DNA from: a virus
DNA length: 33,422 nucleotides
Strand: one strand, 5' to 3'
Virus record (IMG/VR): IMGVR_UViG_3300009790_000039
Location: 1-33,422 of that record
Shown here piece after piece: positions 3,859-6,480 of the stretch (position 1 is the first letter of the stretch; every line of letters begins with the position of its first letter). The notes below the pieces were generated by a model. That model was not told the DNA's origin. It was given only the letters and a program-made list of their open reading frames with translations, and did no database searches. Position numbers and translations under genes: made by a program.

Positions 3859-4920
3859 ATGGCAACAATCACTTTAACAAAACCGAGCTCGTCTTGGAAC
3901 AACTTTTGTGAGTGGGTAACAAGCACTAATAACCGCCTCTACTTGGGGTGGTTCGGTGTTCTTATGATACCTTGCTTACTAACTGCAACAACTTGCTTTA
4001 TACTCGCCTTTATTGCTGCACCTCCTGTGGACATAGATGGCATACGTGAACCAGTATCTGGCTCTCTACTCTATGGAAACAACATCATATCTGGAGCGGT
4101 CGTTCCCTCCTCAAACGCAATCGGACTACATTTCTATCCCATCTGGGAAGCAGCAACACTTGACGAATGGCTCTATAACGGAGGGCCGTATCAGCTTGTC
4201 ATCTTTCACTTCCTTATCGGTGTCGCAGCTTACTTGGGACGCCAATGGGAACTTAGTTATAGACTAGGCATGCGTCCTTGGATATGCGTAGCTTACTCAG
4301 CTCCCGTATCAGCTGCCTTTGCGGTCTTCTTAGTTTACCCATTCGGACAGGGTTCATTCTCTGACGGTATGCCTTTAGGAATAAGTGGAACATTCAACTT
4401 TATGTTTGTCTTCCAAGCGGAGCACAACATCCTTATGCACCCCTTTCATATGCTCGGAGTTGCGGGCGTTTTTGGTGGTGCTTTGTTTGCTGCTATGCAC
4501 GGAAGCCTTGTTACATCCTCAATCATACGGGAGACTACGGAGGAGGTCTCACAGAACTATGGATATAAGTTTGGTCAAGAGAACGAGACTTATAATATAG
4601 TAGCTGCACATGGATACTTCGGTAGATTAATTTTCCAATATGCGAGCTTTAATAACAGCCGTGCTTTACATTTCTTTCTTGGTACTTGGCCTGTTGTTGG
4701 CATCTGGCTTACCTCGATGGGCATATGCACAATGGCTTTTAACCTAAACGGTTTCAACTTCAACCAGTCAGTTGTTGACAGCAATGGTAAAGTTATCCCC
4801 ACATGGGCTGACATTGTCAATAGACAGAACCTCGGCTTTGAAGTAATGCACGAAAGGAACGCACATAATTTCCCATTAGACCTCGCTGGAGAGATAACTT
4901 CAGCACCCACCATATCGTAA
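3859..4920 (+). CDS. psbA: Photosystem II reaction-centre protein D1
   Basis: 353 residues, full length and intact. Numbered one less than standard D1, the key residues are present: Y160 (Tyr-Z, Y161), D169 (D170), E188 and H189 (E189, H190), H197 (P680 ligand H198), and the lumenal [13 protein letters not shown] ending with the D342 and A344 equivalents. Five membrane helices are expected. D1 turns over rapidly in light; the phage copy replaces host D1 during infection. Residue 129 (D1 position 130) is Gln, the form linked to the low-light D1 type. The C-terminal extension after the cleaved Ala is 10 residues ([10 protein letters not shown]), shorter than the usual cyanobacterial one. It follows hli directly. 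Confidence 0.98.
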
Positions 4921-4930
4921 TGACCACGTC

Positions 4931-4983
4931 CGTTCATCCTTTTTAAGGACGCATGACACCTAATCATGGAACGGGGATTAGGT
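4931..4983 (+). promoter_or_regulatory. Glutamine-II (downstream-peptide type) riboswitch candidate
   Basis: Three helices form the pseudoknot expected of the downstream-peptide RNA. P1 is CGTTC 4931-4935 with GAACG 4969-4973. P2 is TCCTT 4937-4941 with AAGGA 4945-4949. P3 is ACCTAATC 4958-4965 with GATTAGGT 4976-4983 (8 pairs), which crosses P1. The linker CGCATGAC (4950-4957) and the ATGGAACGGG core look like the family. The downstream-peptide RNA, known from marine cyanobacteria and their phages, binds glutamine and sits before very short ORFs. A GGAG Shine-Dalgarno (4988-4991) and a 17-codon ORF follow at once, so control of translation through P3 is likely. Confidence 0.75.
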
Positions 4984-4998
4984 ATATGGAGATTACCA

Positions 4999-5052
4999 AT
5001 GAAAGTAACCTACGTATATCGTGGCATTGCTTACACCAAAATAGTTAAGTGA
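4999..5052 (+). CDS. 17-residue DUF4278-like micropeptide under riboswitch control
   Basis: The product is MKVTYVYRGIAYTKIVK. The TYxYRGIAY core matches the start of DUF4278-type small proteins of cyanobacteria (M-x-L-x-YRGxxY). GGAG at 4988-4991 is spaced about 7 bases from ATG 4999. It sits directly below the riboswitch candidate and above a terminator, so it is the only gene the element can control in cis within this transcript. Short ORFs in this position give the downstream-peptide RNA its name. The role of the peptide is unknown. Confidence 0.7.
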   Translation: MKVTYVYRGIAYTKIVK

Positions 5053-5067
5053 AGCTAAATTCTTTAT

Positions 5068-5104
5068 GGGCTATAACCATCTCGGTTATGGCTCTTTTTC
5101 TTTT
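5068..5104 (+). terminator. Intrinsic terminator after psbA and micropeptide
   Basis: The stem is GGGCTATAACC (5068-5078) pairing with GGTTATGGCTC (5084-5094), 11 pairs with two G-U pairs and loop ATCTC, followed by TTTTTCTTTTT (5095-5105). It closes the transcription unit that carries scaffold, hli, psbA and the riboswitch peptide, and isolates it from the capsid gene. Confidence 0.85.
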
Positions 5105-5215
5105 TATAGAATGGTCACACGTTCTATATCATATGAGAGAAGAGACACCTCAGAGTCGGATCTCTTCTTAATTGGCAATGAGCCTCTAAGGAGATACCTC
5201 TTGCCGTCTAGACGG
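5105..5215 (+). repeat. Array of inverted repeats between terminator and capsid gene
   Basis: After the terminator there are four further inverted repeats. TATAGAATG 5105-5113 pairs with CGTTCTATA 5120-5128. AGAAGAGA 5138-5145 pairs with TCTCTTCT 5161-5168. GGCAA 5174-5178 pairs with TTGCC 5201-5205, extended by GAG/CTC. CCGTCTAGACGG 5204-5215 is a perfect 12-base palindrome that competes with the third stem. No gene is supported here: the 60-codon ORF 5066-5248 starts inside the terminator and has no family-like sequence. Possible roles are RNase III processing sites upstream of capsid mRNA (T7 has such hairpins), a small structured RNA, or binding sites for a regulator. From 5216 to 5290 I see nothing more than AT-rich spacer. 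Confidence 0.55.
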
Positions 5216-5290
5216 TGGGATAGACCACACAAACACCTTGAGTCTTAGGTGATACAATTAAGATTCCTATAAATCTAGATCTAGAGACGA

Positions 5291-5310: not shown

Positions 5311-6480
5311 ATGGCACAACAGTCAACTAACAATCCTGCTTCACAAACCTTTCTGGGTAGGATTAATACAGCCACAAACGCTACCAATAACAGAGACCTT
5401 TACTTAAAATTGTTCTCAGGTGAGATGTTTACTGGCTTCCAGAGGGAGACAATCGCACGTGACTTAGTCATGAAGCGTACGCTCACCAATGGTAAATCAT
5501 TACAGTTTATATACACTGGTAGAACAAGTGCGGAATACCACACACCAGGAAATAGTATATTAGGAAACTCTGACAAAACTCCTCCAGTAGCAGAGAAGAC
5601 AATCACAGTTGATGACCTACTCATCTCCAGTGCATTTGTCTACGAATTAGATGAGACACTTGCTCACTACGAATTGAGGGGAGAGATCTCTAAGAAGATC
5701 GGTTATGCTCTTGCACAAAAGTACGATAGACTCATCTTCAGAGCTATCGCTAAAGGTGCTAGACAGGCATCTCCAGTATCACTAACCAACTTCGTTGAGC
5801 CAGGTGGTACACAGATCAGAGTTGGTGCGGGTTCTAACGCAGACGATGCTCTTGATTCAACTAAGTTAGTTACAGCTTTCTATGATGCTGCAGCTGCACT
5901 AGACGAGAAAGGAGTATCTGACGATGGTCGGGTTGCCGTACTAAACCCACGTCAGTATTATGCACTTATACAAGAGGCTGGTTCTAACGGACTAATCAAC
6001 AGAGACGTACAAGGTACAGCTTTACAGAGCGGAAACGGTGTAATTGAAATTGCAGGTATCAGAATCTACAAGTCAATGAACGCTCCATTCTTCTCTAAGT
6101 ATGGTACTAAGTATGCTCCATCATCTGGTGCATCAGCTGCAACTGACCTTGACACAGTAGATCCTGGAAATACAGGTTCATTCGTATCTGAGTCAATCGA
6201 AACAGCTACAACAGTTACAGGTAACAACTACGGAGCTCGTCAGAACTACGGTGCTGCCTCTAACTTTGCAAACACATGTGGACTTATCTTCCAAAGAGAA
6301 GCTGCAGGTGTAGTAGAAACAATAGGGCCACAGGTTCAAGTAACTTCTGGTGATGTTTCTGTTGTTTACCAAGGCGATGTCATCCTAGGAAGACTAGCTA
6401 TGGGAGCAGATTATGTTAATCCTGCAGCTTGTGTAGAATTGTTCGCTGGAACAACTACAAAGCCAGCAGCTTTCTCATAA
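5311..6480 (+). CDS. Major capsid protein, T7 gp10 family
   Basis: 389 residues (T7 gp10A about 345), HK97-fold capsid protein. Recognisable regions are the N-terminal LYLKLFSGEMFTGFQRE, SLQFIYTGRTSAEYHTPG, the segment ISSAFVYELDETLAHYELR, GRVAVLNPRQYYALIQE, and the C-terminal GDVILGRLAMGADYVNPAACVE. It forms the icosahedral shell on the scaffold. Codon use is enriched in frequent cyanophage codons, as expected for the most abundant virion protein. It has its own upstream control region and its own downstream terminator, so it can be expressed separately from its neighbours. Confidence 0.97.
   Translation: MAQQSTNNPASQTFLGRINTATNATNNRDLYLKLFSGEMFTGFQRETIARDLVMKRTLTNGKSLQFIYTGRTSAEYHTPGNSILGNSDKTPPVAEKTITVDDLLISSAFVYELDETLAHYELRGEISKKIGYALAQKYDRLIFRAIAKGARQASPVSLTNFVEPGGTQIRVGAGSNADDALDSTKLVTAFYDAAAALDEKGVSDDGRVAVLNPRQYYALIQEAGSNGLINRDVQGTALQSGNGVIEIAGIRIYKSMNAPFFSKYGTKYAPSSGASAATDLDTVDPGNTGSFVSESIETATTVTGNNYGARQNYGAASNFANTCGLIFQREAAGVVETIGPQVQVTSGDVSVVYQGDVILGRLAMGADYVNPAACVELFAGTTTKPAAFS

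Follow-up and report, generated by a model that had tools for sequence, protein, structure and literature searches.

Between psbA and the major capsid gene of a T7-like cyanophage lies an RNA of the glutamine-sensing type, followed by an ORF of 17 codons, and the question raised by this locus is what such a pair would do there. The window, i.e. the whole 33,422-nt IMG/VR contig IMGVR_UViG_3300009790_000039, represents the part of a T7-like cyanophage genome that holds the structural genes. Its psbA and capsid genes grouped with those of P-GSP1, P-SSP7, P-SSP2/3, NATL2A-133 and others (blastn against phage genomes), and the virus is a virus of marine cyanobacteria. A preliminary description of this DNA had placed the RNA and the ORF between psbA and the capsid gene, which is borne out by the gene boundaries (psbA end at 4920, capsid start at 5311; Table 1); 10 bases separate the end of psbA from the aptamer pseudoknot. 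The arrangement is probably best explained as an ON switch, gated by glutamine, for a viral peptide that mimics host nitrogen-control peptides or competes with them, with a target that we infer. In the window and its relatives, this reading is based on aptamer identity, covariation, coding constraint, host kinship and conservation at the capsid locus.

Table 1 Features of the psbA–capsid interval and its flanking genes (window coordinates)
Feature	Position	Strand	Basis
psbA (photosystem II D1)	3859..4920	+	ORF list; blastn to annotated cyanopodovirus psbA
Glutamine-II riboswitch aptamer	4928..4983	+	RF01704, 58.5 bits vs gathering score 33
Pseudoknot (PK) 5' strand, CGUUC (CGTTC in the DNA)	4931..4935	+	sequence; pairs with GAACG 4969-4973; no variation in alignment A2
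P1 hairpin, TCCTT 4937-4941 / AAGGA 4945-4949	4937..4949	+	covariation, 49 relatives
CGCA linker strand	4950..4953	+	sequence; G4951 = G18 (triple), C4952 = C19, pairing with G4974 (crystal numbering of PMC6698751)
P2 5' strand ACCTAATC (P3 of the preliminary description)	4958..4965	+	covaries with 4976-4983
PK 3' strand GAACG (4969-4973) and G4974	4969..4974	+	G4974 = long-range pair with C4952
P2 3' strand GATTAGGT	4976..4983	+	covariation with 4958-4965; sequence
Shine-Dalgarno GGAG	4988..4991	+	sequence; position common to most relatives
17-aa YRG (DUF4278-like) micropeptide MKVTYVYRGIAYTKIVK	4999..5052	+	coding constraint; host-built repeat profile
Intrinsic terminator-like hairpin with U tract	5068..5104	+	in window and L006; not family-wide
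Hairpin with near-invariant loop CACCUCAGAGUCGGA and covarying stem	5137..5169	+	139 distinct copies
Capsid-leader RNA element R1	5171..5229	+	covariation; absent from Rfam
Major capsid protein gene	5311..6480	+	ORF list; blastn to annotated capsid genes

The covariance search proposed in the preliminary description for its downstream-peptide (glutamine-II) RNA was performed with cmscan and returned RF01704 (Glutamine-II) as the sole Rfam match across the whole window, spanning the full model length (1–60) at a score well above threshold (E 7e-12; Table 1). The helix coordinates given there were exact to the base. All seven bases of the glutamine site in the crystal structure (C1, G2, G18, C19, C39, G40 and G41; PMC6698751) are present in the window as C4931, G4932, G4951, C4952, C4972, G4973 and G4974. 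Over a dereplicated set of 49 viral relatives, 95.5% of cells were paired in the three helices, and 111 cells carried double changes, compared to 30.5 in shuffles and 16–35 in slid versions of the structure. Such compensatory changes were found in 5/5 pairs of P1 and 7/7 pairs of P2, in which all variation is located; the pseudoknot is invariant in alignment A2 because the relatives were picked by their pseudoknot sequence. That the window carries a genuine Glutamine-II riboswitch is thus virtually certain.

As had been described, the aptamer is followed by a Shine-Dalgarno and the 17-codon ORF. The ORF starts 15 bases past the aptamer, with normal spacing from the Shine-Dalgarno (GGAG 4988-4991, ATG 4999, TGA 5050-5052). 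The spacing between aptamer and start codon is uniform among relatives, and the first ATG past the aptamer (4986) does not belong to the reading frame of the micropeptide. A YRG-containing ORF was found downstream of 165/165 viral aptamers with enough 3' sequence and in 12/500 random stretches. In-frame pN/pS was 0.13–0.23 and exceeded 1 in other frames; for 87 distinct 11-codon cores the values were 0.13 in frame and 1.2 and 2.4 in the other frames, and leaving out the YRG codons, by which the ORFs had been selected, gave 0.21 in frame. The YRG ORF is a conserved coding family under strong purifying selection on the protein. The micropeptide is very probably translated, which we infer also for infected cells. 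Two peptide architectures occur in the viruses, one of 13–22 aa, to which the window belongs, and one of 32–42 aa with an N-terminal extension, e.g. MTQVELQARLKEQ; the P-SSP7 version reads MKVTFVYRGVAYTRVIG. A single YR[GR] motif is present in 107/110 distinct viral peptides. Searches of PHROGs and NCBIfam returned only uncharacterised families or none. The preliminary statement that the peptide has no known role stands for the phage; its host relatives, however, are DUF4278 proteins, and a riboswitch of the same class governs them.

These relatives were located by a bacterial genome scan, in which roughly one hundred contigs of Prochlorococcus and Synechococcus carried the same aptamer ahead of small DUF4278 proteins with mostly two or three YRG repeats (33.1 and 42.4 bits for host YRG-repeat proteins against Pfam DUF4278). 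Since 17 aa are too short for the Pfam tool, the designation “DUF4278-like” in the preliminary description was checked via longer relatives and a host-built profile. Against a profile built from host repeats only, the window peptide scored 15.5 bits, above 20/20 shuffles in which YRG was kept fixed, and 104/110 viral peptides exceeded the 95th percentile with the host-unit profile, so the resemblance of the repeat to host proteins was upheld. The phage relative MTQVELQARLKEQKDHARAMKLKYRGIAYTPNR, of the longer architecture, reached 30.5 bits against PF14105 (cut-off 25.3), whereas other phage relatives remained below the cut-off at 14–22 bits or gave no match. The window peptide, with 17 aa and one repeat, contains no full DUF4278 domain (approximately 57 positions, several repeats). 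By sequence likeness, it is a one-repeat version akin to a single DUF4278 repeat and not a full member.

What is published on DUF4278 gives the role of the peptide a concrete form. The type 2 glutamine riboswitch is tied to DUF4278 genes and apparently restricted to marine picocyanobacteria, and DUF4278 (PF14105) makes up the N-terminal portion of IF17, an inactivating factor of glutamine synthetase (PMC6316151); this kinship provides a concrete hypothesis for the phage peptide, which shares the YRGxxY repeat and the upstream glutamine riboswitch with these proteins. Yet the IF17 N-terminal part was reported to be dispensable for glutamine synthetase inhibition (PMC6316151), and the phage peptide comprises 17 aa and not the rest of DUF4278, which makes a direct action in the manner of IF17 conjectural. 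A PDB search with the host 33-aa protein gave no match. The closest host counterpart is Yfr6 of Prochlorococcus, a 244-nt RNA with a 33-aa ORF (PMC1242208, PMC2518516), which like the phage cassette consists of a Glutamine-II leader and a short YRG/DUF4278 peptide. It differs in having its own transcription start, whereas the phage cassette is located inside a polycistronic late region, and the host 33-aa YRG proteins analysed have two YRG repeats where the phage peptide has a single one. PirA, a small basic cyanobacterial nitrogen-control protein induced by nitrogen excess, can be likened to the phage peptide by description; it comprises 51 aa and was reported absent from marine picocyanobacteria. 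No link between PirA and the YRG peptide was drawn in the review or the PirA papers, and kinship of the two was set aside as a lead.

On the favoured reading, the phage peptide is a one-repeat viral version of the host DUF4278 (YRG-repeat) proteins under the same riboswitch, and would act on the host nitrogen-control machinery by copying or competing with them. An effect of the peptide on host nitrogen control is put forward tentatively. Equally tentative is the wider proposal that cyanopodoviruses captured the host glutamine sensor together with a minimised effector, serving as mimic or decoy in a late override of nitrogen assimilation control that takes place beside capsid synthesis. In the decoy form, a single YRG repeat would tie up whatever partner the multi-repeat DUF4278 proteins of the host have, so that nitrogen assimilation would run on late in infection. 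This is in line with the single motif of nearly all viral peptides as compared to the two or three of most host proteins, but the cyanomyovirus AG-345-P14 retains a two-repeat version of 45 aa. Taken by itself the decoy form is rather unlikely; as a sub-case of the mimic-or-competitor reading, it shares the confidence placed in that reading. In AG-345-P14 (L375), a Glutamine-II aptamer (33 bits) precedes the two-YRG peptide, which is followed by a terminator-like hairpin.

For the gating step, a type 2 riboswitch in the late transcript would govern translation of the 17-residue peptide: with plentiful glutamine, the pseudoknot would form around the ligand and the downstream Shine-Dalgarno would become usable. 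According to PMC6316151 and PMC6698751, through which the original reports on the glutamine aptamers and the type 2 switch (Ames and Breaker 2011; Klahn 2018) are cited, riboswitches of type 2 bind glutamine and turn expression ON, and by analogy ON control by glutamine is quite probable here. The Shine-Dalgarno can pair with micropeptide codons 2–7, and in the bound-like fold (P2 formed) of the window the hairpin over it keeps 5 of its 8 outer pairs. Mean Shine-Dalgarno accessibility was 0.37 in both the bound-like and the free state for the window, and 0.235 vs 0.245 as family mean. The two folds gave no clear difference of the kind that a purely energetic switch at this site would call for, and the step from glutamine to translation is taken from the published work. 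In the VTYVYRG class, synonymous recodings left the Shine-Dalgarno more accessible than the native sequence did in 48/50 relatives; that pairing with codons 2–7 beats recodings (e.g. L081, L004) suggests that the coding sequence doubles as expression platform. The window Shine-Dalgarno is not hidden by this measure (0.53 vs 0.54 in recodings).

The cassette is present, unannotated, in P-SSP7 and most cyanopodoviruses, with the aptamer above the Rfam cut-off in 9/12 isolates, P-SSP7 included. No description of it in cyanopodoviruses was found in the literature searched, in which subscription papers were sparsely covered. For 120 aptamers found by pattern alone, the capsid gene lies within 1.5 kb downstream in 91; just two of the other 29 loci have at least 1.5 kb of downstream sequence. 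The presence of the cassette in nearly all related phages examined indicates that these phages probably read host nitrogen status. The sequence, pseudoknot, ligand-site bases and short-ORF spacing are the same as in published Glutamine-II RNAs (RF01704, downstream-peptide motif, DP aptamer), which apparently are known from marine picocyanobacteria only (PMC6316151), whereas here the RNA occurs in T7-like phages at the capsid locus. In the discovery paper of 2010 (PMC2864571), the downstream ORFs, mainly of marine metagenomic origin, measured 17 to 100 aa, and the lower bound of 17 aa may represent phages of the cyanopodovirus type. Phage-borne glutamine sensing is shared with the Glutamine-I (glnA) riboswitches of T4-like cyanophages and the methylophage Melnitz (PMC9964418, PMC9004378), which have another aptamer architecture and, in Melnitz, a link to the tmRNA gene (ssrA). 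Most cyanopodoviruses, among them the laboratory model P-SSP7, carry an RNA that senses a nutrient, together with a micropeptide, at one and the same site ahead of the capsid gene. Were the cassette to work as proposed, a lytic phage would gauge host glutamine and reply with a peptide aimed at host nitrogen control; the nutrient status of very abundant ocean phototrophs would then be tied directly, at the molecular level, to their infection. The one-repeat viral peptide would also offer a minimal handle on DUF4278 and its picocyanobacterial partner.

The position upstream of the capsid gene could also be read as leader-peptide control, in which gated translation of the ORF alters a downstream RNA structure and the peptide is a by-product. 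The structure affected would be the terminator in the window and a T-arm-like junction in the P-SSP7 class, setting the amount or processing of capsid mRNA. Besides the position in the 91 loci, this is favoured by the window terminator, which starts 16 bases past the stop codon, and by the P-SSP7 class, in which the final codons share bases with the 5' arm of the T-arm-like junction. The window terminator is convincing (stem 5068-5094, 11 pairs, 5 of them GC, then TTTTTCTTTT as U tract), and in the clade of the window only it serves as an insulator that sets the capsid gene apart from psbA and the cassette. A terminator-like site was found in 7/125 loci and in 14/200 random stretches, i.e. it is no commoner than in random DNA, and a terminator as conserved cassette part was rejected. 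The “strong terminator” of the preliminary description accordingly holds for the window and a few close relatives, and the notion of a complete cassette ending in one does not hold as a general feature. With a terminator that is not conserved, intervening genes in many loci (e.g. NATL2A-133, with 1.3 kb from psbA to capsid) and strong constraint on the peptide at the amino-acid level, leader-peptide control is improbable.

Structured RNA does occur downstream of the cassette, just 5' of the capsid gene, in nearly all loci. Across 58 sequences, the core of element R1 was 98.3% paired; double changes numbered 128, compared to 37 in shuffles, and Rfam gave no match. Its covariance model found exactly one strong copy per genome in 13/13 cyanopodoviruses, among them S-B28, where the riboswitch is missing, as well as three genomes outside model building. 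The module preceding R1 is one of three: the CACCUCAGAGUCGGA-loop hairpin, a T-arm-like junction or a whole tRNA-Gly. In the hairpin, the loop comprises 15 bases and the inner stem is 96–100% paired with several pair types. In L080 (1598-1669) and, as read by eye, in L416, a complete tRNA-Gly(UCC) ends exactly at the start of R1, and the coincidence of these ends suggests tRNA-like processing of the transcript. As a guess, R1 might be a processing site or a 5' cap/5' element of the capsid mRNA.

Given that the aptamer starts 10 bases past the psbA stop in the window and that psbA was the nearest upstream marker gene found in 75/120 loci, the riboswitch could instead belong to the psbA 3'-UTR and tune psbA mRNA stability with nitrogen status. 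Against this, 29/67 intervals that are complete from scaffold to capsid contain the cassette but no psbA. The cassette is therefore a feature of the capsid locus with psbA as a frequent neighbour, psbA as required partner is ruled out, and the assignment to a photosynthesis module in the preliminary description is not supported. In P-SSP7, moreover, psbA and aptamer are separated by a gap of approximately 200 bases with an annotated ORF, and the aptamer is placed for the peptide start codon, which renders a role in the psbA 3'-UTR very improbable.

A neutral hitch-hiker, i.e. a host cassette that an ancestral phage acquired and that has so far merely escaped loss, would fit the same cassette type in hosts, the diverged aptamer of S-CBP3 and the lack of one in S-B28, but is scarcely credible in view of purifying selection on the peptide, compensatory aptamer changes across diverse phages and the peptide kept in S-CBP3 although its aptamer diverged.

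Single isolates vary in the aptamer itself. No Glutamine-II riboswitch was found in S-B28 among the 12 isolates checked. In S-CBP3 (L331, 2641-2691), the diverged aptamer scored 21.7 bits for glutamine-I and 16.1 bits for glutamine-II, both below the cut-off, next to the YRG peptide MSIQVTYTYRGVKYTKTVNR; a change of aptamer type at one site is possible. In L336, L341, L343, L344 and L362, P1 is lengthened by a shared insert resembling CCGUC..CAGGACAAGUUACCAG..CGG, which is perhaps an added RNA module. In S-SBP1 (L329, 2345-2509), the annotated ORF gp32 is located inside the P1 loop of the glutamine-II RNA, i.e. a gene is nested in the riboswitch.
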